Positions 5,034-19,480 of a DNA stretch of 21,729 bases are shown here, in pieces. Position numbers and translations under genes: made by a program. The notes under the pieces were generated by a model. It saw only the letters and a list, made by a program, of their open reading frames with translations. It was not told the DNA's origin and did no database searches. Origin of the DNA: a virus; IMG/VR virus record IMGVR_UViG_3300047386_000085, positions 1-21,729 of that record; one strand, given 5' to 3'. Numbering within the stretch: position 1 is the stretch's first letter; each line of letters starts with the position of its first letter.

Positions 5034-5035
5034 AT

Positions 5036-5075
5036 ATTATACCGAAGTTTAAGTAAGTTGTCAAGAAATATTTTT
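5036..5075 (-). promoter_or_regulatory. Promoter P1 (sigma-70 type) upstream of the 133-aa gene and SSB
   Basis: Read on the minus strand, TTGACA (5064-5059) and TATAAT (5041-5036) are separated by exactly 17 bases. An A-rich stretch (AAAAAAATATTTC) precedes the -35 element. It belongs to a family of six such promoters in the window. The whole element fits in the 42-base gap after the SF2 helicase stop. The -10 box ends two bases before the next ATG, leaving no room for an ordinary leader. Confidence 0.9.
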
Positions 5076-6359
5076 TTAAAGGTATTTCATGTTCCAGCCT
5101 TGTTTCATATAAAATCCAACCCTATTAGAAGCCTGCTTGCGAGCAGTATTCCCTTTGAGGTGAATATCAATGATGACTGGATCAATCTTACCTTCCTTTT
5201 TACGAATTACCCTGCCCACTAGCTGCGTGAGTAAGGGTTCATTGTTTACAGGTGTACCAAGTATAAGACAGCTTAGCGTGTCTACTGATATACCCTCTGA
5301 GAAAATTGCCTGCGTTCCGTAGAGAACCTCTTTATCCCCGTAGAGAATTTCTTCTACAAGCGTTTCTCGATCTTCGTGAGATACTTCACCAGTTACACAA
5401 ATTGCTTTGTCTCCAGTGAGTTCTGCACATCTTTTCAAAAAGCTAACACGATCACTTACTACTAGCACTTTATGCCCTCTTGCGGCGTAGGCCGCGGCAA
5501 GCATACTTATTGTATGTTGATACTCTTCATCAGTAGCTAGTTTTGTTACTCTGTTAGCCCAGGGGATCTTTGCACCATCCATGAAACGAATCTCTGATGG
5601 TACAATATGTACTGTAGGGGTCATATAGTTTTCTTTAGGTGGTTTAAAAAGAGTATTACCAAAGTAATCTCTGAACACAACGTGCTTTCCATCCTTTCTT
5701 TCTATAGTGCCTGATAGACCAATCTTATATCTACAGTAATTTGTATCTAAAAGTTTACTAAAGGTGGGACTACTAACGTGGTGCATCTCATCAAGTATGA
5801 TAGTTCCAAATTCCTTACGAATCTTCTCGATATTGCGGTATAAAGTCTGAGTATTGCCAATCACGATAGGAGCGTCAATTTCAAATCTACCACTGCCTAT
5901 GATGCCTGGTTCAAAACCATAGACTTTCTTTACTTCTTTTGCCCACTGATTTCGCAGAGGGACAGTATGGGTAATAACAAGAGTCTTTTGACCTAGCTTG
6001 CCTGCGATTGCAAGACCTGTAAATGTCTTACCCCAACTGACCCATGCGTTAATTATACTATTGTCTTCGATTTCATCATAGACCTTCTTTTGGCTGGGTC
6101 GTAACTCAAACTTAAATTCAGGAAAGTCCACAGGTTTGTTCACTCGCTTATCGACTATTTCGTAGTGCGCCGGTATCAAATCCGTGCGTCCTATTGGTAG
6201 TGATACTAACCCGTTACGAATAATGCCCATATTCTTAATGATCTGGGGCGGATCTAAAGGGTTGTGCGTAGGGATTGAATATGTAAGCTCTTTGTCGATC
6301 TTCTCTTGGAGATCAGCACCGCATTCCATATAAATTCTGTGGCTTATGACTGCCTTCAT
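5076..6359 (-). CDS. SF2 DNA helicase, UvsW / T5 D10-like
   Basis: An ATP-dependent branch-migrating or unwinding helicase of the UvsW/RecG-like SF2 group, expected to act on recombination intermediates and stalled forks. The 427-aa protein has a Q-like LRPSQKK at 87-92 and motif I at 104-113. Motif II is DEMH at 190-193 (DExH type), motif III is LSGT at 215-218, and motif IV is VSDRVSFLKR at 301-310. Motif V lies around EGISVD and motif VI is QLVGRVIRK at 379-387. The P-loop is unusual: it reads AWVSWGKT rather than GxGKT, with bulky residues where glycines are normal but the lysine and threonine kept. The N-terminal 85 residues form a small accessory domain, as in UvsW. It starts in an ATGA overlap with the PhoH gene. 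Family is certain; ATPase strength is open. Confidence 0.92.
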   Translation of the reverse strand: MKAVISHRIYMECGADLQEKIDKELTYSIPTHNPLDPPQIIKNMGIIRNGLVSLPIGRTDLIPAHYEIVDKRVNKPVDFPEFKFELRPSQKKVYDEIEDNSIINAWVSWGKTFTGLAIAGKLGQKTLVITHTVPLRNQWAKEVKKVYGFEPGIIGSGRFEIDAPIVIGNTQTLYRNIEKIRKEFGTIILDEMHHVSSPTFSKLLDTNYCRYKIGLSGTIERKDGKHVVFRDYFGNTLFKPPKENYMTPTVHIVPSEIRFMDGAKIPWANRVTKLATDEEYQHTISMLAAAYAARGHKVLVVSDRVSFLKRCAELTGDKAICVTGEVSHEDRETLVEEILYGDKEVLYGTQAIFSEGISVDTLSCLILGTPVNNEPLLTQLVGRVIRKKEGKIDPVIIDIHLKGNTARKQASNRVGFYMKQGWNMKYL

Positions 6360-7015
6360 AGATTAAGTTCATTCTTAGCAATAATATAAGTTTTGACAAA
6401 CTCGGATCGCACAATGTCTTCAACCTCAAACTCAACAAAGTCGAATAGACCCATACGCTTTAGAACTTGAAAGAAATCTTTTATTCCGTTTCCTCTCAAA
6501 TCAGCTTGCCGGAAATCTCCACAAAATATAACTCTACAGTTCTCACCCATACGAGTAATAATAGAGTCTAGTTCGTGAAAGGACATATTTTGGCACTCAT
6601 CAATTAAGATTACAGCATCTCGTAGAGTTATACCTCGAATAAACGAAGTAGTCATAAACTCTACTAAATTTTTTTGTTTAAGTATTTCGTAAGCATCTCC
6701 ACGACTAAACAAGTCGTTTGCAATATCCTTATAAGGCTCTTCATAAACAGAGGCTTTCTCTTTCTCTGTACCTGGCAGAAACCCGATATCTCTCGTAGGT
6801 ACTGCACTTCGTATAATTACTAGCTTTTGATGCTCTCCCTTTGTCATATCATCGAATGCTAGATATGAGGAGATGAAAGTTTTACCTGTACCTGCAAGTC
6901 CATGCAGTACAAGATTTTTACTTGACTCAAATGCTGTTAGTTGGTTACGTGTTAAAGGTTCTATCTCTCTTAGGTCAAAATTTACACCTGCAAGAGTTTT
7001 ACGTCTTTTAGCCAT
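6356..7015 (-). CDS. phoH: PhoH-family P-loop ATPase
   Basis: A 219-aa PhoH-like ATPase, common in marine phages. The exact phage role is unsettled and may be RNA-related, since cellular PhoH proteins are tied to RNA metabolism. Walker A is GLAGTGKT at 39-46. Walker B is VILIDECQNM, then a sensor-like VIFCGDFRQAD, which is typical of the family. I use the ATG at 7015 (MAKRRKTLAG) because it follows the preceding stop by one base. The frame stays open upstream to 7117, with an in-frame ATG at 7063 (MSTQTRN) that would overlap the preceding gene by 47 bases. Neither start has a strong SD. The 3' end overlaps the SF2 helicase by four bases, so the two are coupled within the polymerase operon. 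Confidence 0.92.
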   Translation of the reverse strand: MAKRRKTLAGVNFDLREIEPLTRNQLTAFESSKNLVLHGLAGTGKTFISSYLAFDDMTKGEHQKLVIIRSAVPTRDIGFLPGTEKEKASVYEEPYKDIANDLFSRGDAYEILKQKNLVEFMTTSFIRGITLRDAVILIDECQNMSFHELDSIITRMGENCRVIFCGDFRQADLRGNGIKDFFQVLKRMGLFDFVEFEVEDIVRSEFVKTYIIAKNELNL

Positions 7016-7016
7016 A

Positions 7017-7511
7017 TTATACTTTTCTTCTAGTGTCTTTGAGTTTCTCGTCTGAGTACTCATAAAGCATCCACGGTATTCCATGTAGATGCAGAACCCC
7101 TGCCCATGATTTTTCATCTTCGGGAGGGCGTGGTACGGTGAAAGGAGCGTTGTGCCCCTTTACCCATATTAGTGTCGCATATTCCTTACGCTCTACTTTT
7201 TTAATCTTCATATATTTGAGAGGTACTAGCTTAGTCTTTTCGTAAATAAAAGGCTTGCCTTTGCTATCTACGAAATAAGGAGTTGTCTGCTTCATGAGTC
7301 CGTTCGGGGCAGTAACAGCTTTCTTTAACTCATACTTATCTTTAAAAGGAGTCTGCATACGTCTAGCTCCAATGGTAGTACCCATCTGATTATAGTCATC
7401 TACCAACTTACCTTCACAGAATAATAGTCCGTCTGTAGTTTCCCAGTTTCCTGAGTCCATCAAGAATGCAGGAAAAGTAATCCTTGTAAAGTCTCTAAAT
7501 GTAATTATCAT
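7017..7511 (-). CDS. Hypothetical protein in the replication operon
   Basis: A 164-aa protein with no motif I recognise. It is mixed alpha/beta in character, rich in K, P and aromatic residues (FTRITFPAFLMDSGNW near the N terminus, WVKGHNAPFTVPRPPEDEKSW near residue 125). It has no membrane segment, signal peptide or catalytic signature. The ATG at 7511 lies two bases after the stop of the 58-aa gene, and its own stop lies one base before the PhoH start. This places it firmly in the primase-polymerase-PhoH-helicase operon. A replisome accessory role is a guess from position only. Confidence 0.8.
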   Translation of the reverse strand: MIITFRDFTRITFPAFLMDSGNWETTDGLLFCEGKLVDDYNQMGTTIGARRMQTPFKDKYELKKAVTAPNGLMKQTTPYFVDSKGKPFIYEKTKLVPLKYMKIKKVERKEYATLIWVKGHNAPFTVPRPPEDEKSWAGVLHLHGIPWMLYEYSDEKLKDTRRKV

Positions 7512-7513
7512 AC

Positions 7514-7690
7514 TTATTCAGCTAAACCTAGCTTTGCTTCTGTGTCTAGTATTTGCTGGGATGCTTCTACCCACCTCTCAACAGTGGGATTATAATCTGT
7601 TCGATCTTGAAAGTTGTCTACAACCCACTGAGCCATATTTTTACCTTTTCCATGGGGCGATAACAACCATATTAAACTTGTGTCTGTCAT
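7514..7690 (-). CDS. Small hypothetical protein, 58 aa, between polymerase and the 164-aa gene
   Basis: A short open frame fills the space between the polymerase and the next gene. Its ATG (7690-7688) overlaps the polymerase stop in an ATGA tetranucleotide, and its TAA ends two bases before the next ATG. The overlap at one end and the tight fit at the other argue that it is translated. The 58-residue product starts MTDTSLIWLL, has a short basic loop (HGKGKN) and an acidic C-terminal helix (VERWVEASQQILDTEAKLGLAE is its tail region in part). It has no known family, signal or membrane segment. The role is unknown. Confidence 0.72.
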   Translation of the reverse strand: MTDTSLIWLLSPHGKGKNMAQWVVDNFQDRTDYNPTVERWVEASQQILDTEAKLGLAE

Positions 7691-9966
7691 ACTATTCTAT
7701 CTCCGTACATTTTGTCAAACTTACCGCCTGAATAATCTTCGTGAACAATCTCGAAGTCACAACCTACTGGAGCACCAGGAATAGATAAACCTCTATCCAT
7801 CTGTATGTACTCTGCGAGTTTCTGCATATACTCTTCTACTTCACCTTCGGGCACTTCTGCAAGAATTGAATCGTGTACTAGTGCAAAGATACGAGCCTTC
7901 TTGTTGTTGGCTTTGATCCATGCGTTCATGTCTATAGCACCTAAGAGGTTAATATCAGAAGCAGCAGACTGCACCAGAAAATTAAGACCAGACCTAATGC
8001 TATGACTCTGTATGCCTTTGTCCGTCGAAGCGACATTTGGTAATCTCCTTTTTCTTCCGAAGAAGCTGTAAATGAATCCATTTTGTTTAATGAACATTTG
8101 GTTTTCCTCAATCCAAGATTTCAACTTATGGAAGGCATTGAAGTATTCGTCAATAACATCCTGAGCATCTGATCTGGTAAAAGGTTTACCACTATCTTTT
8201 GTAACTTGTTCACTGATCTTGTTAGCACCTGCACCGTACATGATGCCGAAGGTTACGGCTTTTGCCGCCTGTCTTTGTGTACTAAATTTCTCAGCTACTT
8301 CTTCGACAGGGCAAGGTAGTCTAAATACTTTCTTAGCGATTGTACTGTGGAAGTTGCCTCCCGACTTAAATACGTCCATCAATGCTTTGTCTTTTGCTAA
8401 GATAGCTGCTACATATACTTCTGCTGTTGTCAAATCCATTGCAACAATTTTATTGCCTGGAGCTGCTTTGATACAGCCTTTTACAATGGGATTATCTCTA
8501 GGCAGTTGCTGCATATTAAGTTTACCACTAGAGCTAAGCCTGCCACTAGTAGTACCATGGAGGTTGAAACCTGTACGGAGTCTGCTATCTCTATCCAACT
8601 GCGGTAAGATCTTGTCCAGATAAGTATTTTTAATCTTGGACTTTTGTCGAATGTTGAGGATAAGTCCGGGGATGTGGGATTGCTCACCGAGTGCCTCAAG
8701 AACTTCTGCATCTGTAGAATGTGCTCCAGTGCCAGTCTTTTTGCCAGTAGGATTGAGACCAACAAAGTCGAACAGCAAGCTACGAAGCTGAACAGTAGAG
8801 TTAGGATTAAAATCTTTTCCATTAATTTTCTCAAATTTACTAATGGCAGGGTCTTTGTATAGTTCTACAACTGCTTCATCTATCTGCTCTTGCATAAGAG
8901 ACTGAGACTTTACTAGTCGTAATTTATCAAAGGGTACGCCATTGTCTTGGATGTCCGTTAAGAAACGGCAACCAGGTATTAATATGTTGTCATATACTTT
9001 TGCTAAACGTTTATTCTGTTTGATCTTGATAAACTTCTCGTAAAGCAAGTATGTAACAGCGGCGTCCATACCAGCATATAGTTTCATAATGTCAAAGGGA
9101 ATATCTCCCCAGCTAAAATCATTTTTGAGTATACCATGTTGCTTACGATAGTTATCTATCCAATCATACATTGGCTTCTCATAGTCCCCGTACTTTGTGT
9201 ACTTGATAGCTAACTGCTTCAAGCCGTGTGTACCAGGATTTTCATCAATTAGGTAGTGTAGTAGCATTGTATCCTCGAAGTGAGGAAACTTAAAGTTGAA
9301 ATGATACTCAAAGAAAGCCAAGTCAAACTTTGCGTTATGGAATACTACTGCTTTTTTGTTAAAGAGTTCTTGCAATAGACGCTCAGACTCTTCGTCTAAA
9401 CACTCTGTGTCTATGTATGCACCACGATCTTGCTCATAAGATAGCGATAAACCAAGCATATGCCCATCACGTGGGTATAGTCCTGTAGTCTCCGAATCGA
9501 GTGCAATATAAGCACTAGGAGCGTCTATAGCTGCTTGAAAGAAAGCGTTGGCTTCTGTTGTATCTTGAATACCCCAAGCGTTGTACTCGGTAATAACCGT
9601 ATCTTCTATTTCGCCTTTGATATATCCAATGATACTTGCTTTTGAATCTTCCCATGTTCTTTTCGCCTCTGGTTTAAATGCGAGCATGGCGGGGTTAATG
9701 ACAGGTAAGAACTTCTCTTCTACTTTCTTACCAGAATATTCTGTAACTGAGTTGATGGGGGTGAAGTATTTAAGAGCATCACTTCCCACTAGAATTACCC
9801 AGTCGTAGTCGTCTGTATTGATATCAATGTCACAATCTCGTTTCAATACTTTTTTGAGGGTAGAGTCGGAGCAAAGCTGATACTGATCAAACTCAAATGC
9901 GTCATCGAACTCTCTTTTAAAATTTGTTTTACTTGGTTTAGTTTCTACTAATGCAACTTTAGGCAT
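7687..9966 (-). CDS. Family A DNA polymerase with 3'-5' exonuclease and UDG-like N terminus (T5 D9-like)
   Basis: The replicative polymerase, 759 aa. The proofreading domain has D157/E159 in ALDSETTG, N211/D215 in HNAKFDLAF, and Y297/D301 in YAGMDAAVTY, so ExoI-III are intact. The polymerase domain has motif A around D511 and E516 (MDLTTAEVYVAAIL, a T5-like departure from DYSQIELR). Motif B is RQAAKAVTFGIMYG at 565-578, with Phe at the discriminator position (F573), and motif C is LVHDS at 697-701. Residues 1-125 precede the exonuclease. Within them, DWVILVGSDAL and FLPVINPAMLAFKPEAKRTW look like the last half of a uracil-DNA glycosylase, with the catalytic His-Pro changed to Asn-Pro. The gene overlaps primase by eight bases and the 58-aa gene by four. 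Confidence 0.96.
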   Translation of the reverse strand: MPKVALVETKPSKTNFKREFDDAFEFDQYQLCSDSTLKKVLKRDCDIDINTDDYDWVILVGSDALKYFTPINSVTEYSGKKVEEKFLPVINPAMLAFKPEAKRTWEDSKASIIGYIKGEIEDTVITEYNAWGIQDTTEANAFFQAAIDAPSAYIALDSETTGLYPRDGHMLGLSLSYEQDRGAYIDTECLDEESERLLQELFNKKAVVFHNAKFDLAFFEYHFNFKFPHFEDTMLLHYLIDENPGTHGLKQLAIKYTKYGDYEKPMYDWIDNYRKQHGILKNDFSWGDIPFDIMKLYAGMDAAVTYLLYEKFIKIKQNKRLAKVYDNILIPGCRFLTDIQDNGVPFDKLRLVKSQSLMQEQIDEAVVELYKDPAISKFEKINGKDFNPNSTVQLRSLLFDFVGLNPTGKKTGTGAHSTDAEVLEALGEQSHIPGLILNIRQKSKIKNTYLDKILPQLDRDSRLRTGFNLHGTTSGRLSSSGKLNMQQLPRDNPIVKGCIKAAPGNKIVAMDLTTAEVYVAAILAKDKALMDVFKSGGNFHSTIAKKVFRLPCPVEEVAEKFSTQRQAAKAVTFGIMYGAGANKISEQVTKDSGKPFTRSDAQDVIDEYFNAFHKLKSWIEENQMFIKQNGFIYSFFGRKRRLPNVASTDKGIQSHSIRSGLNFLVQSAASDINLLGAIDMNAWIKANNKKARIFALVHDSILAEVPEGEVEEYMQKLAEYIQMDRGLSIPGAPVGCDFEIVHEDYSGGKFDKMYGDRIV

Positions 9967-10786
9967 ATAATTTACTCTTTAGTTTCTGTACTGTTTGTAA
10001 GGGTAGAGCTCCTGGATCACGATCCTTGAGGCTCACATTTCTACTAGCTAAGCCTACTCGCTCAGCCATCTCTTGAACTTCTTTGGAGGCGTTCTGTCCT
10101 GCCTCATCTCCATCAAAGAATACAATTACTTCATCTACACCTTGTATAGAAAGCATACGTAATTTATCCTCATTAATGTTCTTTGTGCCGAAGCAACAAA
10201 TTGCATTATCTAATCCTTTGTCATGCAAGTTTACCATATCATATATACCTTCCACTAGTACAACAGAACCTTGTATCGGCTCTACTACAGGGAATAGAGG
10301 CATCTTCGCACCCGCAGGCGAGATCATATACTTAGGCGTTCCGCCTGTGGTATGACGACCATTGAATGCTACTATACGACCTGATATATCTCTTACAGGG
10401 AATACAATCCTGCCGATATGATCAGGGTCATGATGCTGAAACGCTTCAAACTTCTTGTACGTCTCAGGCTTAATATCTCTCCAGTTGCCTACATAAGGTG
10501 TAATATTTCGAGGAAAAGACAAACCAACACTCTCAGACCTCTTATGTCGAATAGTCTTTTTTAATAGTTCTCGTCTTAGTTGTAGTTGGTTCGCCTTTTC
10601 TCCGAAATGAGTAAAAATGTTGCCCTTGAAACCGCACGAAAAACACTGAAATATGCCTGTGATTTTATCAATCCGCATACTAGGGTTTCTATCGTCATGG
10701 TCTGGTGACAAGCAGCATACCAAAAAGTCTCCGCCTTTTGGTATAAAATAAATTCCTTTAGCTACGAGTAGTTCTTCTACTGTCAA
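9959..10786 (-). CDS. DnaG-like DNA primase (zinc finger plus Toprim, no helicase domain)
   Basis: Synthesises RNA primers for the neighbouring polymerase. At 275 aa it is about half the size of bacterial DnaG. The N-terminal CHC2-type zinc site uses C24/C25, H30, C48 and C51 (CCLSPDHDD, then FQCFSCGFKGN). The catalytic core shows RIVFPVRDISGRIVAFNGR at 126-144, the RNA-polymerase-like basic motif. The Toprim acids follow: E179 in VLVEGIYD and D225/D227 in FFDGDEAG. There is no C-terminal helicase-binding or helicase domain. The DnaB-like helicase is encoded separately upstream, unlike the fused T7 gp4. It overlaps the preceding 93-aa gene by four bases and polymerase by eight, forming a coupled unit from promoter P2. 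Confidence 0.94.
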   Translation of the reverse strand: MTVEELLVAKGIYFIPKGGDFLVCCLSPDHDDRNPSMRIDKITGIFQCFSCGFKGNIFTHFGEKANQLQLRRELLKKTIRHKRSESVGLSFPRNITPYVGNWRDIKPETYKKFEAFQHHDPDHIGRIVFPVRDISGRIVAFNGRHTTGGTPKYMISPAGAKMPLFPVVEPIQGSVVLVEGIYDMVNLHDKGLDNAICCFGTKNINEDKLRMLSIQGVDEVIVFFDGDEAGQNASKEVQEMAERVGLASRNVSLKDRDPGALPLQTVQKLKSKLYA

Positions 10787-11064
10787 CGTCCTATATCCTT
10801 TACATTTTCACTACTGATTACTTGGTATGCACCTTTATTATAAGCAGGTGCTACTGTGAAGGAAGCATTCTCCGCATAACTGCGGTCAGGGGCTTCGCAA
10901 GTACCTACACCATCATCCGCAGATTTATAGTGAACTGTATCTCTACGATAGGTATTGGCAACCTCTAAGGGCTCAAACTTAGGAGTATAGGTCTTAGACT
11001 TCGGTAAAGGCTTGCGCTTTCTACCTGAAGCTGTATGTCGTAAACTGCCGAATGTAAGTGCCAT
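10783..11064 (-). CDS. Small basic hypothetical protein, first gene of the primase-polymerase operon
   Basis: A 93-aa protein of unknown family. The N terminus is strongly basic (RHTASGRKRKPLPKSK) and the rest is polar with little hydrophobic core, so it may be partly disordered and nucleic-acid binding. That is inference from composition. I place the start at the ATG at 11064 because AAGGAG lies eight bases upstream and promoter P2 lies 30 bases before it. A longer frame to 11106 would begin inside the promoter and has no ribosome site. Its stop overlaps the primase start by four bases. It is the only gene in this operon with a well-formed leader and SD, so it should set translation of the coupled genes behind it. 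Confidence 0.8.
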   Translation of the reverse strand: MALTFGSLRHTASGRKRKPLPKSKTYTPKFEPLEVANTYRRDTVHYKSADDGVGTCEAPDRSYAENASFTVAPAYNKGAYQVISSENVKDIGR

Positions 11065-11094
11065 ATTGCTTCTCCTTCTTGTAAATGTCCGTAT

Positions 11095-11135
11095 ATTATA
11101 CGCCATATCACATGAGAAGTCAAGAACTATTTTTA
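11095..11135 (-). promoter_or_regulatory. Promoter P2 (sigma-70 type) upstream of the 93-aa/primase/polymerase operon
   Basis: On the minus strand, TTGACT (11123-11118) and TATAAT (11100-11095) are spaced by 17 bases, with AAAAATAGTTC directly upstream of the -35. The A-rich segment overlaps the last codons of the DnaB-like gene. The spacer is the most divergent of the six promoters, and the -35 has one mismatch. It is expected to be strong but weaker than P3-P5. Confidence 0.85.
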
Positions 11136-12485
11136 AATATCATCAATTTCTTCACCAGTTTTATGGGAAGAATCTTCACGTTCTTTAGGAGTGAGTGCAG
11201 ACTCGGGGCCAATCTTTAGGCTGTCCCAATCTACTTCTGAGGTGAATGACTTCATAGAGGCTGAACGCATCTTCACACAATTTAATGTGATACAGGCATC
11301 TTCATGATCCCACGTTTCCAACGTGTAAGCGGCGTCTGCCGCATCAAGAATACCTTTAGCGAATCTAGCTTCTCCACTAGCATCTGTTTGGTAGGGTGAG
11401 AATACGGTACAATCGTACTCCTGTGCCATAGACTTCAATGCTTTACTAACTTCAATCTGCTCTGTCCAGTCATACTGTCCGCCAGTACGAGAGGGTAGAC
11501 TCGACCGCTTTACCTGATTAATATAGTCAACGATAATGACACCAACATTCAGAGGTTTGACTTTTTTGTCAAGCTCGGCACGAATTTTGGATAATGTTAA
11601 AGCTGGCTCATATACTACATCTAACTGCTGAGTCGGGAGGAGCTCATGGTTAGCTTTCAGTACATTATGCAACTTCTCAAAGTCACGATGTTCTCTATAT
11701 TCCTTCAAGCGGTCTTGTCCATCAACATAACGAGCTGTCCACCAATTAGCCACTTGTTCCCACTCAGTAACATTTAAGTTCTGAGTACGCAGACGCGCAA
11801 AAGGAATTTTAGTGGCAATTGAGCAACATCTCTGAAGGATAGATCGACTATCCATCTCAATAGTGAAATAGATAGCCGACTTACCTGAAGCGTAAACATT
11901 GTTGGCAATGTTTGCACAAATAACAGATTTACCTGCACCACGTCGTCCACCGACCATAACCAAATCTCTAGGAGAGAACTGGATTTCATGATCGTACTCA
12001 TCATTGAGTCCGAACTTCATGTAACGGGCTAAATCTTCTTCTGGCTCAAACAGTTCAATACGTTGCATACTTTCCTGCGGGTCTTCAAGATCAACCTTAT
12101 CTTCAATGTCTAAGACAATCTGATGAAGGTGGTCTACTGACTCTTGAGCATCCTCGAATGCTACAGAGTGTTCAACATAATCTTCTAGTGAGTCCAGAAT
12201 TTCTTTCTGAGTATATTCGTTTTTAAGATACTGAAGAAGCATCTCAGGGTCGGCATCGACCTCGACAGCTTCAATCGCAAAAAGTTTTTCACGAGTAGCA
12301 GAATCACGAATCTCATACTTGAGATCTTCAACTGTGGGCATTTTATGAAAGTCTTCGCAATGCTTATCAATAATCTTATAAAGACTATGATACTCACTTG
12401 GCAGATAATGCCTGTGCGTTACACTCCAGGTCTGAAAGTCCTGTAGCTCAAGCACTTGCTTTATTAGCGCAGATGCGATATTCAA
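11133..12485 (-). CDS. DnaB-like replicative DNA helicase
   Basis: The 5'-3' replicative helicase, 450 aa. The N-terminal part (1-150) is helical and acidic, as in DnaB N-terminal and linker regions. The RecA-like domain has Walker A GGRRGAGKS at 179-187, FTIEMDSRS with the catalytic-glutamate region at 207-214, Walker B VIIVDY at 316-321 and a sensor FSPYQTDASGEA near 362. The start is TTG, with GGGAGGG at an ideal distance. No upstream ATG keeps the domain, and the next in-frame ATG is about 50 codons in. No promoter is visible in the 70-base gap ahead of it. A stable hairpin lies there instead, so it is likely transcribed by readthrough from P3. Low-level expression is inferred from hairpin plus TTG. 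It lacks a primase domain. Confidence 0.92.
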   Translation of the reverse strand: MNIASALIKQVLELQDFQTWSVTHRHYLPSEYHSLYKIIDKHCEDFHKMPTVEDLKYEIRDSATREKLFAIEAVEVDADPEMLLQYLKNEYTQKEILDSLEDYVEHSVAFEDAQESVDHLHQIVLDIEDKVDLEDPQESMQRIELFEPEEDLARYMKFGLNDEYDHEIQFSPRDLVMVGGRRGAGKSVICANIANNVYASGKSAIYFTIEMDSRSILQRCCSIATKIPFARLRTQNLNVTEWEQVANWWTARYVDGQDRLKEYREHRDFEKLHNVLKANHELLPTQQLDVVYEPALTLSKIRAELDKKVKPLNVGVIIVDYINQVKRSSLPSRTGGQYDWTEQIEVSKALKSMAQEYDCTVFSPYQTDASGEARFAKGILDAADAAYTLETWDHEDACITLNCVKMRSASMKSFTSEVDWDSLKIGPESALTPKEREDSSHKTGEEIDDI

Positions 12486-12513
12486 TTATAAACCCTCCCA
12501 AGTTTAAAGATAT

Positions 12514-12537
12514 GGGCAGACCCCGAAGAGCCTGCCC
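12514..12537 (-). terminator. UUCG-tetraloop hairpin between the four-HTH gene and the helicase
   Basis: On the minus-strand RNA the arms GGGCAGGCUC and GGGUCUGCCC pair over ten positions, with two G-U wobbles that would be A-C mismatches on the other strand. A UUCG loop closed by C-G caps the stem. The following bases (AUAUCUUUAAA) are not a clean U-tract. It is therefore either a leaky terminator or a 3' mRNA-stabilising and processing structure that separates the HTH gene from the helicase gene. Confidence 0.7.
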
Positions 12538-12556
12538 GTAATAGTACTAAGTTAGA

Positions 12557-13279: not shown

Positions 13280-13282
13280 GTT

Positions 13283-14032
13283 TTATTCTCCAATAAAATC
13301 TAATAAATTAGTTATGATTTCTACGCCAGATTCTCTGGCTTTCTTAGTTTTAGCGGACTCGACTCCGCTTTCGTTAACCAGTATTGTAACATCCTTTGTT
13401 AGACTAGTCTTTGTTACATATCCGAGTTCTTGTAGTTTAACATTCGCTTCCGATTTAGTTTTGAAACTATTCAGTTTACCACTAATACATACAGTACCTT
13501 TCGACTCAACGACTGCTCTAGGGCTGTCGAACCTGAAACTAAAAGGTAGAAGGCTAACATAATAAAACTCGTCCTCAATCCATGAGGTAAGATTACTACT
13601 CGCTTTATCGCCAAGACCAGCCTTACGGCACAAATCATAGTCTATTTCTTCAATGTCTTTGCAGACTCTCGATAGCTTTTCCGCGGCACTTTTGCCGATA
13701 AGCGGGATGCTGAATGCAGGTAATAACACATTCAGGGGTGCAGAGCGAGATCTCTGTAACTCATCTACTAACTTGACAGAAAGACGATCTGAAGCTAGTG
13801 CTTCGGCTATATCTTCAAAAGACAATTCATAAAGCTCCTCTAGGGAGACAATGTTGAGCTTCTTGATAGTAGCAGGACCTAAGCCCTTGATCTTTAAAGT
13901 CTTGGCAAAGTGTTCGATAAGTTTCAGAGACTTCTCTCCGCATTTGGGGTTTCTACAATACAGAAGATGATTGACATCTTCAAGAACCGAATCACAGCTT
14001 GGGCAATTCTTGGGCGGTTCGATGAATGTCAT
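13283..14032 (-). CDS. ligB: NAD+-dependent DNA ligase, C-terminal subunit (zinc finger, HhH, BRCT)
   Basis: The second half of a split LigA-type ligase, 249 aa. A four-cysteine zinc finger (C10, C13, C26, C31) is followed by helix-hairpin-helix motifs: LKIKGLGPATIKKL at about 46-59 and FSIPLIGKSAAEKL near 107-120. A BRCT domain occupies about 178-249 (GTVCISGKLNS, then TKDVTILV). These are the domains after the OB fold in cellular LigA, with no nucleotidyltransferase. It should join with the LigA subunit encoded just upstream, as in phage T5, where ligase is also made as two subunits. It has its own promoter (P3) and a strong SD (AGAGGAGA) before the ATG. The promoter gap makes separate genes, not a frameshift, the right reading. 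Confidence 0.9.
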   Translation of the reverse strand: MTFIEPPKNCPSCDSVLEDVNHLLYCRNPKCGEKSLKLIEHFAKTLKIKGLGPATIKKLNIVSLEELYELSFEDIAEALASDRLSVKLVDELQRSRSAPLNVLLPAFSIPLIGKSAAEKLSRVCKDIEEIDYDLCRKAGLGDKASSNLTSWIEDEFYYVSLLPFSFRFDSPRAVVESKGTVCISGKLNSFKTKSEANVKLQELGYVTKTSLTKDVTILVNESGVESAKTKKARESGVEIITNLLDFIGE

Positions 14033-14058
14033 GGTCTCTCCTCTGAAATTGAAATAGT

Positions 14059-14099
14059 ATTATACGCAAATTTAAGGTTTCTGTCAAGAATTATTTTTT
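14059..14099 (-). promoter_or_regulatory. Promoter P3 (consensus sigma-70) upstream of ligB and the four-HTH gene
   Basis: On the minus strand, TTGACA (14087-14082) and TATAAT (14064-14059) have a perfect 17-base spacing, preceded by AAAAAATAATTC. The spacer contains CTTAAATTTGCG, and the start of the transcript reads ACTATTTCAATTTCAG into an AGGAG ribosome site. Similar stretches occur at P4 and P5. Confidence 0.93.
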
Positions 14100-14105
14100 C
14101 ACAGG

Positions 14106-15038
14106 TCACGAAGGATTTATCCTTCTGACAATGCGAGGTATAATCTCACCAGAACGTATAACTTCTACTCTACATCCGATCTCCAGATCTAGGTCGCGTA
14201 TGTACTCAATGTTGTGCAATGTGGCTCTAGACACTGTCGCTCCGCCTATCTCAATGGGATCAAGAACCCCAACTGGACTGACTACACCACTTTTGCCTAG
14301 CTGCCACACTACATCTAAGAGAGTTGTTTCTACACCCTGCTTCTGCTCTTTGAGAGCAAACGCACCTCGTGGGTGATTAGAGGTATGACCCAGCTCTTCA
14401 AACTTGAAGTTATCTCGCAGACGATATACTATACCATCTGTGGGATATCCAGTGCAATCAAAAGAAAGTGCTGTATTGAAACCCATACGTTCCAACCCTT
14501 CAAGAGTTGCATCAAAGTTTCGATTTACAACTTTCTCTTGACCGTACGCTACGAACCACAACTCTTTAGAACGCTCAAAGAACTCGTCGTGGTCTTTCAA
14601 GTTGAGAGACCCCGCAGCGTAGTTACGAGCGTTAGGAATAGAGTCTGGAGCAACTACTTCACCAGTTATCTGTACCATTGCAGTCATACTGATTTGGTCA
14701 GGTACTAGTAAGCGCATCTTATCAGTGATGTCTCTACCTTGTATGCCATCGCCTCTGGTAAGAGCCAACTGGAGAAAACCCGCAACATACAACAGCGAAA
14801 CAGCTGCTCCGTCAAGTTTAGGAGTTTCAATACATTCTTCTACCGCCAAAGGAGCATCCGCAAGATCAAAACATTTCTTGAGGGAATACATACGATAGGT
14901 GTGCGGAACTGCATCAGTAACCTGGTACCCAACCTTGTTATACTGGTGCTTTTCTGCAAGAAGATCAAACTCGTCGTCAGTAAGTTGAGGACGACCTTCA
15001 TAGTAATCTATACAGGCTTGGTCTAAAAAATCTCGCAT
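14106..15038 (-). CDS. ligA: NAD+-dependent DNA ligase, adenylation subunit (Ia-like, NTase, OB fold)
   Basis: The catalytic half of the split ligase, 310 aa, sealing nicks with NAD+. It starts with an Ia-like helix pair (DYYEGRPQLTDDEFDLL at 11-27), which holds the NMN-binding elements. The nucleotidyltransferase follows with nucleophile K74 in ETPKLDGA, TRGDG at 94-98, GEVV at 126-129, NARNYAAGSL at 136-145, PTDGIV at 199-204 and AFALK at 226-230. Residues 243-306 are the OB fold (LGKSGVVSPVGVLDPI). The protein ends where cellular LigA would continue into the zinc finger. It starts with ATG seven bases after AGGAG, under promoter P4. Every catalytic motif is intact, so it is a working subunit, not a truncated relic. 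The Ia domain is shorter than the cellular one. Confidence 0.93.
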   Translation of the reverse strand: MRDFLDQACIDYYEGRPQLTDDEFDLLAEKHQYNKVGYQVTDAVPHTYRMYSLKKCFDLADAPLAVEECIETPKLDGAAVSLLYVAGFLQLALTRGDGIQGRDITDKMRLLVPDQISMTAMVQITGEVVAPDSIPNARNYAAGSLNLKDHDEFFERSKELWFVAYGQEKVVNRNFDATLEGLERMGFNTALSFDCTGYPTDGIVYRLRDNFKFEELGHTSNHPRGAFALKEQKQGVETTLLDVVWQLGKSGVVSPVGVLDPIEIGGATVSRATLHNIEYIRDLDLEIGCRVEVIRSGEIIPRIVRRINPS

Positions 15039-15064
15039 ATTGGTTCTCCTAAAATTGAAATACT

Positions 15065-15105
15065 ATTATACGGGATTTCAGGAACTCTGTCAAGAACTAT
15101 TTTGT
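15065..15105 (-). promoter_or_regulatory. Promoter P4 (consensus sigma-70) upstream of ligA
   Basis: On the minus strand, TTGACA (15093-15088) and TATAAT (15070-15065) have a 17-base spacing, with CAAAATAGTTC ahead of the -35. The leader AGTATTTCAATTTTAGGAG matches that of P3. The upstream part overlaps the last codons of the MptE-like gene. Confidence 0.92.
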
Positions 15106-15891
15106 TATACTTCTTTTATTTCCTGAAAGTTTCTTTTGAAGAGTGTAAGCATTCCAGCAAGTAGCAGGCTCAGGAAGATCCTCCTCAACAACAGAGTTTA
15201 GTTCATCTAAAGATCTATAAGTCATAAAGTCATTTATAGAAGCGTTGGGATTAGCAGAGTAAAAATGGATACCCCTATTTCGGCACTCTTTATTCAACCA
15301 CTTTAACCAGGCGTATATGTCTCCATACAATCTTGTATTCCTGCTTTTTTCCACATCGTTTAATATTATATCGTTATGGTAGTCGGATTTCGTATTATCT
15401 AAGTCGCAACCTACTAAGGTTATGTCTTTAAATCCCATATGTATTAAGAGATTCATGGCTACTGCCATTACATGGTTGTGCCATATAAAATGCTTAGCCC
15501 CTTTCTCAGCTCTTCTAAATATCTCGTCTCGCTTTCCTTTCTTAACATTTATAAAATGAACATTGTTCATGTTTATAGGGAATACATCTTGAAAGCCTCT
15601 ATCCTGATAACCTCCCCGGAAAAACTTCGGAAAAGCCTCAAACACAACTCGTCTGTCATAACACTTTGGATCGTCCATACCCATCCACATATCGGGGATT
15701 ACAAAAGGGTATGTGTTGTTCATACCTAACACAACCTTTCCGGGACCTCTTAGCAGGGATGTATCTACACTTTTCAAGGAAGGCCCTCCACACACTAATA
15801 TGGCTCGGGCAGAGTTAACCTCTCTGAAGAAGTTTGACAACTTCCATTCTGAACCTGTCCAATGTACCACTGAATGTGCTTGTGTCGCCAT
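15097..15891 (-). CDS. MptE/DUF115-like or GT42-like Rossmann-fold protein
   Basis: A 264-aa protein with a nucleotide-binding Rossmann start, ARAILVCGGPSLKSVD at about 28-43. GMNNTYPF (56-63) and MWMGMDDPKCY (69-78) follow, and later ITLVGCDLDN. This layout (GGPSL, then a conserved N-N, then a G-D pair) is shared by the MptE-like pyrophosphokinase/DUF115 proteins and the GT42 sialyltransferase-like fold. Phage copies often lie near genes for surface or nucleotide-sugar chemistry, but here the neighbours are PC4 and ligase. It begins in a TAATG overlap with PC4 and ends at promoter P4. Substrate cannot be read from the sequence. A nucleotide-linked transferase is the most that can be said. 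Confidence 0.6.
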   Translation of the reverse strand: MATQAHSVVHWTGSEWKLSNFFREVNSARAILVCGGPSLKSVDTSLLRGPGKVVLGMNNTYPFVIPDMWMGMDDPKCYDRRVVFEAFPKFFRGGYQDRGFQDVFPINMNNVHFINVKKGKRDEIFRRAEKGAKHFIWHNHVMAVAMNLLIHMGFKDITLVGCDLDNTKSDYHNDIILNDVEKSRNTRLYGDIYAWLKWLNKECRNRGIHFYSANPNASINDFMTYRSLDELNSVVEEDLPEPATCWNAYTLQKKLSGNKRSITK

Positions 15892-16190
15892 TACTTATAT
15901 AAGTCTCGGATTAGATCTCCGAAAGTCTCCTCTACTAATTGTTTTGATTCTGCAAGAGACAGTATCTCTACTAAACCTGCGAAAAGTTCTCTGGAATTTG
16001 TTAGATCAAGAGGCATCGCTACACCTTCTGGAGTAGGCTTCCACTCCTCGTTGAAGTCTAAGTAATACTTACGCAAGTGTATGTACTCAATATCTCGAAA
16101 AGTATTGATGGTAAGTCTTACCTGTACTTCTTTTACTTCGTCGTAGTGTATTACTCGAGAATATGCTTCAGGTGCTTGATGTAATTCCAC
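15891..16190 (-). CDS. PC4-like ssDNA-binding transcription/recombination cofactor
   Basis: A 99-aa homologue of the eukaryotic coactivator PC4, a dimeric ssDNA and duplex-melting protein. The family pattern is clear: EVQVRLTINTFRDIEYIHLR at 21-40 (strand, glycine-less hairpin and the invariant IxxR), YYLDFNEEWKPTPEGVAMPL at 42-61 (the PTxxGv motif), and a final helix at 64-78. T5 is known to encode a PC4 homologue linked to recombination-dependent replication, and this protein fits that role with the gp46/gp47 pair. The start is GTG, overlapping the upstream stop (TAGTG), with GAGGG nine bases before. The residues beyond 80 form an extra helix absent from the minimal PC4 core. The family call is from the pattern only. 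Confidence 0.78.
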   Translation of the reverse strand: MELHQAPEAYSRVIHYDEVKEVQVRLTINTFRDIEYIHLRKYYLDFNEEWKPTPEGVAMPLDLTNSRELFAGLVEILSLAESKQLVEETFGDLIRDLYK

Positions 16191-16462
16191 TACCTTCTAC
16201 CCTCGTTCTTTAAGATTGACGATAAAGGTACTACACTCGACACGTTGGCAGGGCGTAATAAACGATAAGAATCAGTATCCCAACAGAAAAATAAAAGTGT
16301 ATCTGTGGTTTCTTTTGCTCTATTCTTTTTCTTCTGTATATAAGGCGTGGAAAAATCCAAAGTACATACGTTGTACTTTAGCTTTCTTGATTGCTCACTA
16401 CGATATGTAATGATTGCGTCCCCGTACTCTGTTACGAGGTTAGCTAGTTCTTGCTTTTTCAC
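16190..16462 (-). CDS. Hypothetical 90-aa protein upstream of PC4
   Basis: A small protein of unknown family with a basic centre (SRKLKYN, then YIQKKKNRAKE), a hydrophobic strand (TLLFFCWDTD) and a basic C-terminal end (NEGRR). I choose the GTG at 16462 because AAAGGAG lies five bases upstream. The frame continues to a TTG at 16492 with no ribosome site. No consensus promoter is visible between it and the terminator on its 5' side. It may rely on readthrough or on a weak promoter that I cannot identify. Its stop overlaps the PC4 start, suggesting the two are made together. A modulator of PC4 is possible but unsupported. Confidence 0.72.
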   Translation of the reverse strand: MKKQELANLVTEYGDAIITYRSEQSRKLKYNVCTLDFSTPYIQKKKNRAKETTDTLLFFCWDTDSYRLLRPANVSSVVPLSSILKNEGRR

Positions 16463-16540
16463 TTTAGCTCCTTTGTAGTAATTCAGCAACAATTATTGTG
16501 AGGTTACATACTGTTAGGTGCTTTTGCTAGATGCAAGAAA

Positions 16541-16566
16541 GCCCCGCTAGTCGAAACTAGCGAGGC
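16541..16566 (-). terminator. Intrinsic terminator after the single-HTH gene
   Basis: On the minus strand the arms GCCTCGCTAG and CTAGCGGGGC pair over ten positions (one U-G) around a six-base loop TTTCGA, and TTTCTT follows. It begins seven bases after the stop of the single-HTH gene. The G-U pair is a mismatch on the other strand, so it acts on leftward transcripts. Confidence 0.85.
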
Positions 16567-16573
16567 GAGTATT

Positions 16574-17020
16574 TTAGCCTTCGTTGATCGCTGTGATAAC
16601 TTTGGTGAAATACTGTGATGCTTTACCAGTCAGCTTGCCGATGATTTCCTCATCAACTTCTTGACCTGCATCACCAAGTGCCGCGATAAGAGCTTCTGCA
16701 GCTGCTGCTTTAGATACTCGTGTACCACCGCCACCTTTAGAACCGCCACTAGATTTAGCAGCAGGAGTTTTCTTAACATAAACGCCAGCTTTGGTTAAGA
16801 TCATACGAACACCATTTGGTGATTCGTCTAGTTCTTCAGCAATATCTTTAACAATCTCCATGCTGGTCTCTGGAGTTGGTTCTGCTTCTTCGTACATTGA
16901 TACTGCTTGTGCTTTTTTATCGTCGTCCCAAGCCACTTTTCTTTTCCTCTTGTTTGGGTTTTTGTTACCTGGGCAATCACCCAGAGCTTTAAGTTGTTGA
17001 AGGTAGAATCTTTCCGACAT
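16574..17020 (-). CDS. Single-HTH DNA-binding protein related to the four-HTH protein
   Basis: A 148-aa protein with a basic N-terminal arm (NKNPNKRKRKVAW) and then one HTH/Myb-like unit at 31-82: WDDDKKAQAVSMY, a helix IVKDIAEELDES, and a recognition helix PNGVRMILTKAG. It keeps the same IAEEL-x-S-xxGVRxxLxxxG spacing as the repeats of the 240-aa protein. A Gly/Ser linker (89-100) joins a separate C-terminal helical domain at 101-148. The gene is a self-contained transcription unit: promoter P5 is about 30 bases upstream, AGGGG precedes the ATG, and a terminator follows the stop. That arrangement suggests high, independent expression. Candidate roles are early-gene regulator or nucleoid protein. 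Target and partner are unknown. Confidence 0.82.
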   Translation of the reverse strand: MSERFYLQQLKALGDCPGNKNPNKRKRKVAWDDDKKAQAVSMYEEAEPTPETSMEIVKDIAEELDESPNGVRMILTKAGVYVKKTPAAKSSGGSKGGGGTRVSKAAAAEALIAALGDAGQEVDEEIIGKLTGKASQYFTKVITAINEG

Positions 17021-17048
17021 TTGGTTATTCCCCTAAATTTGAAATGAT

Positions 17049-17090
17049 ATTATACGGCAATTTAAGGACTTCTGTCAAGAAATATTTTTT
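17049..17090 (-). promoter_or_regulatory. Promoter P5 (consensus sigma-70) upstream of the single-HTH gene
   Basis: On the minus strand, TTGACA (17078-17073) and TATAAT (17054-17049) are 18 bases apart, with AAAAAAATATTTC before the -35. The TGA stop of the methyltransferase is the TGA inside TTGACA. The leader ATCATTTCAAATTTAGGGG resembles those of P3 and P4. Confidence 0.91.
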
Positions 17091-17626
17091 TGATCCTGTA
17101 AATTTTTTGGTCTAACCACTACATCTAAAAACTGTCCTTCTTCTATAGTCTTGTTCTGTATGGTAAAATAGGCTTTTAATTTTTGAAGCCACCACTCAGA
17201 GCTTTCTATAATTAGGTGTGCATTGCGTCCGTCAGGTAAAACTTTTTTTGCCTTCTTCAAGGATATAGTGAATAAACCTTTTTCTAGAGTAACTCTATGT
17301 AAATCTTGTAGTACGTTATCTAGTAAGTCAGGCTCTATATGTTCTAAAACATCTATGCATACTACAAAATTATGGGGTATATTATTGTGTACTAATTTTT
17401 CATTAGCAGGCTCATAGCTAGTTACTTTTATTCCGTCTTTACGCATTGATGTTTCTAGGTAGCAACGACCTGCTCCGTAATCTAGTAGGTCTTTGTATCC
17501 GTCTTTTTTAATAATATTTGAAATATATGCCTGTATCTTCGGTGTTTTTGCTGTTGCCCCGAATTTATATTTTTTGTGGGTTTCTTTCATAGCCTCTAAA
17601 TAATTACTTGATATTAGCTCTGTCAT
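17075..17626 (-). CDS. Class I SAM-dependent methyltransferase
   Basis: A 183-aa protein with the Rossmann methyltransferase core: motif I DLLDYGAGRCYLE at 46-58, an acid at E72 (TSYEPANEK) for the SAM ribose, and motif IV-like VVCIDVLEHIEPD at 88-100. This is the signature of the Methyltransf_11/23 group, often acting on small molecules or lipids. No N-x-P-P/Y DNA-methylase tetrapeptide is present and there is no target-recognition domain, so a restriction-type DNA methylase is unlikely. It begins in an ATGA overlap with the HTH gene and ends inside the -35 of promoter P5. The substrate is not readable. Confidence 0.78.
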   Translation of the reverse strand: MTELISSNYLEAMKETHKKYKFGATAKTPKIQAYISNIIKKDGYKDLLDYGAGRCYLETSMRKDGIKVTSYEPANEKLVHNNIPHNFVVCIDVLEHIEPDLLDNVLQDLHRVTLEKGLFTISLKKAKKVLPDGRNAHLIIESSEWWLQKLKAYFTIQNKTIEEGQFLDVVVRPKNLQDQKNIS

Positions 17627-18342
17627 AATCTGTCAATCCTTACTCCATACTGTTTCAAATGTTCTAGCTTACAAAGTTCATATGCTGGAACATATGCAGA
17701 GAAACCGCCTGCTGTTACGTTTGAAAAGAAAGTATCATCGCTGTCAACCTTCTGTTTAATATATACTGCATACACAGGACACCCATACTTACTCTCATAG
17801 TCAGTGTTTGCTAGACCTGGCTTACTTGCAATATACTCTGGAGTGAGTCGTGCGTGTACTTCTACCGCGCCATGATACGACGCCGACCACGCAACCTCCC
17901 CTTCCGCATAGTCATCTGACAAGAGAGCATCCGGATAATAGTGCGACCCAAGTTTTTCTTCTTTATTCGCAGGACGCTGGGGTACGCCGACCTTTTCGAG
18001 TAATGCTCGAACAAAGGAAGGTGATCTGAAAAGGGACTTAGAAATCTCTGAAATCGTCCCGCCTTGCAGGTAGCTTTCGCAAGCCTCCGCAATTTCAGCT
18101 TGAGACGCGGGTCGACCCCGTAGCTTTTTCTTGCGTTGTGCAGTGTATGCTTTCTTTTCATGGTATTCCTCAATAATCTTATTTAGCCTAGTAGTATTGT
18201 AGGCTATATTTAGAATATCACACGCTTCCTTTTTGGTTATAGGTTTCTGAGAAGAACTGGGGTTTAGAAGTCCTATTACTTTCTCGATGTTTTGAGTCGA
18301 TAAGTTTTCGTAGTCCTTCTTCTTTACTATCTTTCGTGCCAT
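17623..18342 (-). CDS. Two-HTH regulator-like DNA-binding protein
   Basis: A 239-aa protein with a basic N terminus (ARKIVKKK). A first HTH lies at about 34-57 (ITKKEACDILNIAYNTTRL). A basic AT-hook-like linker (KKKLRGRP) at 71-78 leads to a second HTH at 79-118 (QAEIAEACESY...SEISKSLFRSPSFVRALLEKVG). Residues 131-239 are a separate C-terminal domain of unknown fold. The ATG has GGAG seven bases upstream, which fixes the start despite a 125-base overlap with the DUF3310 gene. No later ATG is available. It is followed at once by the methyltransferase. A transcription regulator is the likely role, inferred from the HTHs; the site bound is unknown. Confidence 0.75.
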   Translation of the reverse strand: MARKIVKKKDYENLSTQNIEKVIGLLNPSSSQKPITKKEACDILNIAYNTTRLNKIIEEYHEKKAYTAQRKKKLRGRPASQAEIAEACESYLQGGTISEISKSLFRSPSFVRALLEKVGVPQRPANKEEKLGSHYYPDALLSDDYAEGEVAWSASYHGAVEVHARLTPEYIASKPGLANTDYESKYGCPVYAVYIKQKVDSDDTFFSNVTAGGFSAYVPAYELCKLEHLKQYGVRIDRL

Positions 18343-18598
18343 ATTCTAACTCCAATAATAATTCGCAATAATGTATAATTTTCTTTATGTCCTCGGCACC
18401 GTTCTTAGCTTTGTGTCGAGTCGCATACTTTATGATGTTTCCTTCGATGTATCCTAAACCATTTGCGTGTATATACTCTAATGGTTGTATAGGCAGATCG
18501 TAGTGCGATCCACCTTCTTGCCGCTCTAACGGTCTTTGTTCTTCGTGATCTTCTGCTACCCACACTGGTAATTCTCCTGAAGCTGCAATGTTTTTCAT
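18218..18598 (-). CDS. DUF3310 family protein
   Basis: A 126-aa protein with the DUF3310 core: GGSHYDLPIQPLEYI at 29-43, GYIEGNIIKYATRHKAKNG at 49-67 and AEDIKKIIHYCELLLELEYG at 68-87. These small helical proteins are widespread in phages and have been called nucleotide kinase-like, but no function is established that I know of. The core ends at residue 87, and from codon 86 on the DNA is also used by the start of the next gene in another frame. The C-terminal tail (KLIDSKHRESNRTSK) is polar and may be tolerated simply because of that overlap. It starts in an ATGA overlap with the 74-aa membrane protein. Confidence 0.85.
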   Translation of the reverse strand: MKNIAASGELPVWVAEDHEEQRPLERQEGGSHYDLPIQPLEYIHANGLGYIEGNIIKYATRHKAKNGAEDIKKIIHYCELLLELEYGTKDSKEEGLRKLIDSKHRESNRTSKPQFFSETYNQKGSV

Positions 18599-18819
18599 AA
18601 AATATAATCTTTAACTAAACCACTTAATAGCGTGAAAGCCATCACTGCATTAAGAAGTATTAGTGCTTTATCTTTCCATGCGAAAGATACTACTAACCAC
18701 AGAGTCGTGCCTGTGAAACTAAAGATGAGATCATACATATGATACTCATCTCCTGAGGCTCTGAGCATTACTGCTATAATAATTACTATAGATGCTGCCC
18801 ACTTGACTACATCTATCAC
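18595..18819 (-). CDS. Small membrane protein, three predicted helices
   Basis: A 74-aa, very hydrophobic protein with segments at about 5-20 (VKWAASIVIIIAVMLR), 29-47 (YDLIFSFTGTTLWLVVSFAW) and 52-72 (ALILLNAVMAFTLLSGLV), separated by short charged turns. It starts with GTG overlapping the upstream TGA in a GTGA tetranucleotide, with a weak ribosome site, so coupling is likely. It could be a holin by size and topology, but it sits 1.4 kb downstream of the lysozyme among early-type genes. An inner-membrane protein of unknown role is the safer call. Confidence 0.72.
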   Translation of the reverse strand: MIDVVKWAASIVIIIAVMLRASGDEYHMYDLIFSFTGTTLWLVVSFAWKDKALILLNAVMAFTLLSGLVKDYIL

Positions 18820-19415
18820 TTAGCAGTAATCCGTTTCTCGTAGTCTGCATAGTCATCGCTCCACCAGGGTGGTCTTTCTCGATACTTCCACTCTGCAAAC
18901 GTACCCTTGTCGAGGTGATAATAATCACGATACGACTGGATTGGATTGTCATAGTCTTTTAACTCGTCAGGCATAGCTAGACCGAAAGTAGTGAACCCCT
19001 TGCGAGGCATATTCTCAGGCTCAGGTAGTTTATTTACTACTTGTGCAATCGACTTGTGGTCTTTACCATAGCGATAACGATACTCTTCATTCAAAGCATT
19101 ACCATAACAGTGAGTCCACTCAAAATTATCTAGTGATGAACGTACCCAGATTGTGCAAGGGTGATTGTACATCATTGGCAGATAAGGTGTGAGTGGTCGC
19201 TCTTCTGGTGGAAGATGCTTGATTTCTTTTTTCAAAGCGTTTAGATGATCTCTCTCGTCTTTCTCAAGAGCGCGTGGTATAAAGCCTAGATGCTTGTCAA
19301 CCCATATGGCTGTACATAGCAACTGTGCTACCTCAAGAGGCATCTTCACGATATGCTTGTCTACATGATACTCGGCACACTTGTCGAGATCTTTGTCAAG
19401 GTAAAATAAATTCAA
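18816..19415 (-). CDS. Conserved phage protein of unknown function
   Basis: A 199-aa protein of a family I know only from marine phages. Conserved-looking blocks are MNLFYLDKDLDKCAEYHVDK, KMPLEVAQLL, YNHPCTIWVRSSLDNFEW, ALNEEYRYRYGKDHKS and a tail with YRDYYHLDKG and W-rich RPPWWSDDYADYE. The several histidines, Tyr-Arg pairs and tryptophans suggest an enzyme acting on DNA or nucleotides. Database names such as pyrimidine-dimer glycosylase have been attached to similar proteins, but I see no DenV catalytic N terminus. The start is TTG, with GGAG seven bases upstream. The ATG at codon 25 would remove the conserved beginning. Promoter P6 lies just before it, making it the first gene of its unit. 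Confidence 0.8.
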   Translation of the reverse strand: MNLFYLDKDLDKCAEYHVDKHIVKMPLEVAQLLCTAIWVDKHLGFIPRALEKDERDHLNALKKEIKHLPPEERPLTPYLPMMYNHPCTIWVRSSLDNFEWTHCYGNALNEEYRYRYGKDHKSIAQVVNKLPEPENMPRKGFTTFGLAMPDELKDYDNPIQSYRDYYHLDKGTFAEWKYRERPPWWSDDYADYEKRITAK

Positions 19416-19442
19416 TGCTTTTCTCCGTAAATTTAGACAACT

Positions 19443-19480
19443 ATTATACTAAACTTCAAGAAAAGTGTCAAGAACTATTC
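19443..19480 (-). promoter_or_regulatory. Promoter P6 (consensus sigma-70) upstream of the 199-aa gene
   Basis: On the minus strand, TTGACA (19471-19466) and TATAAT (19448-19443) have a 17-base spacing, with GAATAGTTC before the -35. The spacer has CTTGAAGTTTAG, a variant of the element seen in P3 and P5. It starts three bases after the o-spanin stop, separating the lysis genes from the early-type operon. Confidence 0.9.

Follow-up and report, generated by a model that had tools for sequence, protein, structure and literature searches.

Why should six promoters of one phage resemble each other not only in their -35 and -10 hexamers, but also in the bases before, between and behind them? The question is raised by the window, i.e. 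the whole stretch of 21,729 nucleotides analysed here, which by its gene content and order is the replication module of a T5-like, Demerecviridae-like phage from an uncultured branch. Its genes follow each other in the order flap endonuclease-like, D13/D12-like, D11-like, D10, polymerase, primase, DnaB-like, D5, ligB, ligA and D3, and the same order is found in T5 and pVp-1. The identity to the T5 proteins amounts to 52% for D5, 49% for D3 (over 104 aa), 44% for D10, 43% for ligA and 37% for ligB, roles beyond these five being assigned by position and open reading frames alone; the DNA polymerase is 45% identical to those of T5-like phages of Aeromonas and Vibrio. A phage collection searched with the window DNA gave no near match, and an Rfam search of the window gave no match. 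Two good terminator-like hairpins are present on the minus strand, at 16541-16566 after the D3-like gene and at 12514-12537 after the D5-like gene.

The six leftward promoters, designated A to F and each situated ahead of a gene, all have their -10 ends at the positions, and on the minus strand, given in an earlier note on this DNA:

5036..5073, minus strand: promoter A, after the D10-like helicase gene; AAATATTTC at 5073-5065, -35 box TTGACA at 5064-5059, -10 box TATAAT at 5041-5036
11095..11132, minus strand: promoter B, flanked by the DnaB-like helicase gene and a 93-aa gene that precedes the primase; AAATAGTTC, -35 box TTGACT, -10 box TATAAT
14059..14096, minus strand: promoter C, before ligB; AAATAATTC, TTGACA, TATAAT
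15065..15102, minus strand: promoter D, before ligA; AAATAGTTC, TTGACA, TATAAT
17049..17087, minus strand: promoter E, before the gene of the D3-like DNA-binding protein; AAATATTTC, TTGACA, 18-base spacer, TATAAT
19443..19480, minus strand: promoter F, before a 199-aa gene that weakly matches pyrimidine-dimer glycosylase; GAATAGTTC, TTGACA, TATAAT

The spacing is 17 bases at five sites and 18 at 17049, and the -35 box reads TTGACT at 11095 and TTGACA at the other five, both as claimed; a strict promoter pattern gave 5 matches versus 0.06 in shuffles, the 18-base site alone being missed. The AAATAnTTC element reported for all six sites directly before the -35 box is exact at five, 19443 having GAATAGTTC instead of AAATAGTTC, while the CTTAAATTT-like spacer core was indeed present at five sites and missing at 11095, and ATTTCAA(A)TTT was found at the transcript start at 14059, 15065 and 17049. 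The likeness beyond the hexamers is real, with upstream element, spacer and leader each exceeding shuffles of themselves: over the six sites, the 12 bases before the -35 box have a mean identity of 83% (z=14), the spacer of 50% (z=8.8) and the leader of 49% (z=8.1). Stop codons of upstream genes lie inside promoter elements, namely TAG in AATAGTTC at D (15097-15099, minus strand) and F (19475-19477, minus strand), and TGA within TTGACA at E (17075-17077, minus strand). At site A (5030-5041, minus strand), a 133-aa gene has its start codon, ATG or GTG, 1-2 bases past the -10 box in 31/31 distinct relatives. As this codon lies upstream of the expected start site, transcripts from promoter A should lack it; the 133-aa gene may be translated from read-through RNA alone, or promoter A may serve the next gene. 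For the 199-aa gene downstream of promoter F (18816-19415, minus strand), the Pfam match to pyrimidine dimer DNA glycosylase is borderline, with 23.4 bits at a cut-off of 23; the gene has relatives in cyanophages and other phages.

The closest parallel is provided by the strong sigma-70 promoters of T5 (N25, N26, H207, P31A/B, K28a; Markadamsvirinae). Four of the window promoters have annotated T5 counterparts at the same junction between genes: P31A/P31B after D10 (A), P-K28a before ligB (C), 65284 before ligA (D) and N26 before D3 (E). Common to both sets are the TATAATA -10 box with 17-18 spacing that characterizes the T5 type, the A-tract before the -35 box, a cct.aaattt-like spacer and an AAATT-like transcript start. 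The consensus of 36 T5 promoters aligned on the -10 box, ttAAAAaTttA. TTGCtt ...cct.aaatttt.g TATAAT Attt.taTaAatT..agaga, is matched by the window sites in the upstream A-tract, the spacer core (cct.aaattt) and the leader core (taAatT..aga), and on T5 matrices the sites exceed their own shuffles with z=3.4 upstream, z=4.3 in the spacer and z=6.7 in the leader. T5-like promoters have been described, for phage AKFV33, as carrying two blocks, AAAAATT near -43 and TAAATT after +1 (PMC3326045). An AT-rich block near -43 is present at the window sites (T5 matrix z=3.4), and an AAATT-like block just past +1 reaches z=3.0 over the six sites, with A and B low; many near-identical host-type promoters with such blocks are likewise found in AKFV33 and other T5-like sets. 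On the other hand, the -35 box is TTGCTw in AKFV33 and mostly TTGCTT/A in T5, whereas TTGCTw does not occur at the six sites, which have TTGACA/T, and the upstream block reads AAATAnTTC in the window and AAAAaTttA in T5. By their -35 box, the six sites are thus a variant of the T5 type and not strict T5 promoters. In relatives, the consensus of sites C-F is AaAAATA.TTC TTGACA .....ttaaA.tt.cG TATAAT At.ttTTcaaatttaggggaa.

Judged by sequence, the six sites are almost certainly T5-type sigma-70 promoters, very likely used by host RNA polymerase. Since upstream region, spacer and leader match the T5 consensus, the extra similarity is largely inherited T5-type architecture, with a -35 box and an AAATAnTTC element of the clade's own, rather than a new operator. 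The premise of the earlier note, that host RNA polymerase needs the hexamers and the A-tract alone, fails for the T5-like family in view of the two additional blocks (PMC3326045) and of N25, whose initial transcribed sequence influences productive initiation (PMC12464699). A-tract, spacer core and transcript-start core probably serve polymerase binding and escape.

The alternative put forward in the earlier note, a common operator read by the phage's own HTH proteins, can be formulated as a repressor or activator, e.g. the D5-like 240-aa protein, acting on the spacer plus leader or on AAATAnTTC. The 240-aa HTH protein is D5-like and the 148-aa HTH protein D3-like, both being relatives of DNA-binding proteins; HTH-type matches were obtained in the D5-like protein, and T5 D5 is annotated as DNA-binding and needed for late transcription. 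In line with such a reader, AAATAnTTC stands at a fixed distance from the -35 box in 75-98% of the distinct sequences at five sites. The promoters themselves are stable: allowing at most two mismatches, they are missing from 0/50, 0/130, 0/186, 0/193, 18/223 and 20/135 orthologues of A-F, counts which take in overlapping loci of one contig, the distinct sequences numbering 31, 45, 58, 66, 75 and 67. Among these relatives (31-75 distinct sequences per site) the hexamers and AAATAnTTC stay and most spacer and leader letters drift, which comes close to the outcome that the earlier note had named as speaking against its proposal, i.e. loss of the spacer and leader likeness with the hexamers kept. 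An operator common to the spacers and leaders was rejected for this lack of conservation, and it is not needed either, the T5 promoter type accounting for most of the likeness. Against an operator also stand the absence of the core at B, the retention of the full AAATAnTTC element in only 27% of the distinct sequences at F, the similar A-tract in T5, and the occurrence of the element before a gene resembling those for L-shaped-tail-fibre assembly in a relative (L607); taken together, a phage regulator on a common operator seems quite improbable. The tail-fibre-assembly-like gene also rules out AAATAnTTC as a tag specific for early genes. The element further precedes the gene of a 621-aa protein without PHROG match (L606), and the largest T5-like fragments carry 15-20 strict promoters each, 6-9 of them with the element. 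In a viral scan for the element, 57-59 among the 80 matches listed encode at least one window gene, where the upper count may include two bacterial-MAG loci from the same list.

Spacer and leader are complementary to each other at three sites, B, D and F, and RNA reading through these sites is predicted to fold as follows:

11066..11123, minus strand: predicted read-through hairpin B; 5' arm from -35 box and spacer, -10 box in the loop region, 3' arm over GGAGAAGC
15046..15084, minus strand: predicted read-through hairpin D; 5' arm spacer 15084-15075, 3' arm leader 15055-15046 (ATTTTAGGAG, Shine-Dalgarno (SD) sequence inside)
19418..19465, minus strand: predicted read-through hairpin F; 5' arm spacer 19465-19449, -10 box in the loop, 3' arm leader 19436-19418 (GGAGA inside)

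The arrangement in which the 5' arm precedes the start site and the 3' arm includes the SD is predicted at B, D and F, and not at A and C. In the window copies, hairpin B (-14.4 kcal/mol) shows no excess over shuffles (p=0.27), the duplexes at D (-10.0) and F (-12.1) differ from shuffles with p=0.02 and p=0.004, and site E gives a duplex of -9.4 (p=0.03); at F, the predicted unpaired fraction of the SD is 0.79 in the own transcript versus 0.24 in read-through RNA. Single relatives beat their shuffles at p<0.05 in 16-33% of cases at B, D and F. Given the AT-rich, nearly palindromic cores of spacer and leader, part of the complementarity comes free. A swap test pooled across genomes may be confounded by composition, bacterial control promoters also giving z=-2.9, which is why the argument is built on tests within a class, controlled by reversed spacers. 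When partners were swapped among the relatives of one class, a procedure which removes relatedness incompletely, native arms paired better at B (z=-5.0), D (-4.7) and F (-6.6), with a marginal effect at E (-1.7) and no signal at A (+1.5) and C (+2.2). Reversed spacers at B, D and F gave z of +1.1, -2.1 and -0.7, substitution of an upstream or coding segment for one arm gave -1.6 to +1.7, and the swap-test controls as a whole (reversed spacer, upstream 17 bases, coding sequence) lay between -2.3 and +1.8. The antisense strand performed more weakly than the sense strand (z -3.5, -2.9 and -4.2), which is what a contribution of G-U pairs would lead one to expect. Disjoint sister pairs deal better with relatedness but form a weaker test; pooled over B, D and F, native pairing was better in 44 and worse in 19 (p=0.001), with weak results site by site (p=0.005, 0.02 and 0.05). 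The tests were picked during exploration, and all six sites are reported.

Arms altered together are found, for example, in L068 (CTCTTCCTAAAA/TTTTTAGGAAGAG), L050 (AGCCTCCTCTA/TAGAGGAGGCT) and L132 (TGTCTCCATT/AATGGAGACA). On compensatory pairing the approaches disagree, the swap and sister-pair tests being positive and consensus-structure prediction negative: RNAalifold on MAFFT alignments gave no common structure at F or D and, at B, a 4-pair stem alone that falls short of the SD. The pairing register slides by a few bases among relatives. The predicted SD accessibility in relatives of B, D and F is 0.70, 0.53 and 0.46 in own transcripts and about 0.20 in read-through RNA (0.20 at B), where native spacers give 0.17, 0.20 and 0.22 and shuffled spacers 0.29, 0.31 and 0.35; at C and E it is little changed (E 0.41 versus 0.37). 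Site A, where the position of the start codon leaves no room for an SD leader, serves as a natural control without complementarity signal.

It could be argued that the sites are extended T5-type promoters and nothing else, their letters being retained to let the polymerase bind, melt the DNA and escape, and the complementarity being a functionless by-product. The match of the window sites to the T5 consensus, the promoter description for AKFV33 (PMC3326045), the effects of the N25 initial transcribed sequence (PMC12464699) and the existence of A and C, promoters without hairpin signal, agree with this. Yet B, D and F combine drifting letters with a pairing of native arms that exceeds that of swapped arms, the controls stay mostly flat, and the paired changes are left unexplained by polymerase preference; a by-product is rather unlikely on this showing. 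A hairpin that terminates or attenuates read-through transcription instead of blocking translation appears highly improbable. The 8 bases that follow the 3' arm contain at least five T in 11/40 D and 6/40 F sequences, a minority at both sites, and in 1/39 B sequences, on which grounds the terminator reading was rejected; the loops, moreover, are long, since they contain the -10 box. In L050, the B-site hairpin (L050:6258-6311) consists of a perfect stem rich in G and C, with TTTTT behind it, as the terminator reading would have it, and may act as a terminator there.

From the promoters, their conservation, the T5 synteny and the covarying complementarity, all read from the sequences, we infer start sites, read-through and a translational effect, as follows. 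Host RNA polymerase very likely starts at the T5-type promoter, whose spacer at 11095, 15065 and 19443 would also encode the 5' arm of an RNA hairpin, with the leader and its SD as 3' arm and the -10 box in the loop. Read-through RNA from an upstream promoter would hold both arms, such that the ribosome-binding site (RBS) is hidden and the RNA remains untranslated. RNA from the own promoter would start downstream of the 5' arm, lack it and be translated, and the own promoter would account for most of the expression of each such gene. T5-type promoters combined with RBS-masking read-through hairpins at B, D and F represent the best explanation of the locus, one we consider fairly probable, and a function of the hairpins at three of the six sites, the spacer doubling as an antisense arm against read-through translation, is modestly favoured by the folding predictions and swap tests. 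The shut-off signal suggested in the earlier note would thus survive in another form at three sites, as spacer-leader complementarity with predicted translational shut-off, and not as a common operator.

A precedent exists in T4, where RBS-masking hairpins in the leaders of e, soc, 49 and I-TevI silence RNA initiated upstream (PMC3014915). In T4 gene e, as predicted here, the promoter lies in the region encoding the 5' strand, the SD is located in the downstream arm, and the own transcript lacks the 5' arm. In contrast, T4 e has a late promoter and a measured effect, whereas host-type sigma-70 promoters, several genes and predicted hairpins are concerned here. The cases of such insulation described so far are a few T4 genes. 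In T5 itself, the hairpins occur at genes other than those in the window. At promoter 46337 before gene 090, AAAGCCCTC pairs with GAGGGCTTT; at the same place in Serratia phage Kamaji, AAACCTCC pairs with GGAGGTTT through compensatory changes, and the T5.090 stem is preserved in an Epseptimavirus. Among gene-proximal T5 promoters, 6/25 have a duplex of -10 kcal/mol or below versus 2.3 with swapped partners (p=0.01); the average over all annotated T5 promoters gave p=0.09, and pVp-1 and AhSzq-1 showed neither an average effect nor an excess of such duplexes. In the open-licence literature, no paper on RBS-covering hairpins in T5 was found, and the description of AKFV33 does not mention a hairpin (PMC3326045). 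Strong spacer-leader hairpins are also seen in T5 (AY543070) at 26722 (minus strand) before T5.053 (-15.4 kcal/mol) and at 28597 (minus strand) before T5.058 (-14.0 kcal/mol).

That one short segment serves T5-like phages in general in two roles, for the polymerase as a promoter spacer and against the downstream RBS as an antisense arm, is possible, though somewhat less likely than not. If true, many genes of long operons would be expressible solely from their own host-type promoter, so that expression units would be insulated throughout the family. T5 promoters are in heavy laboratory use, and a spacer that silences read-through RNA could be useful as an insulated promoter-RBS part. All gene classes of T5 use host sigma-70, and the mechanisms of switching between them have been stated to remain unknown (PMC7472727); silencing by the spacer would offer a simple partial explanation. 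As to the host, a contig (L352, L387; NZIJ01000061.1) binned in the MAG Halieaceae MED611 carries many window genes and the same promoters, which weakly hints at a gammaproteobacterial host, or at a free phage binned along.
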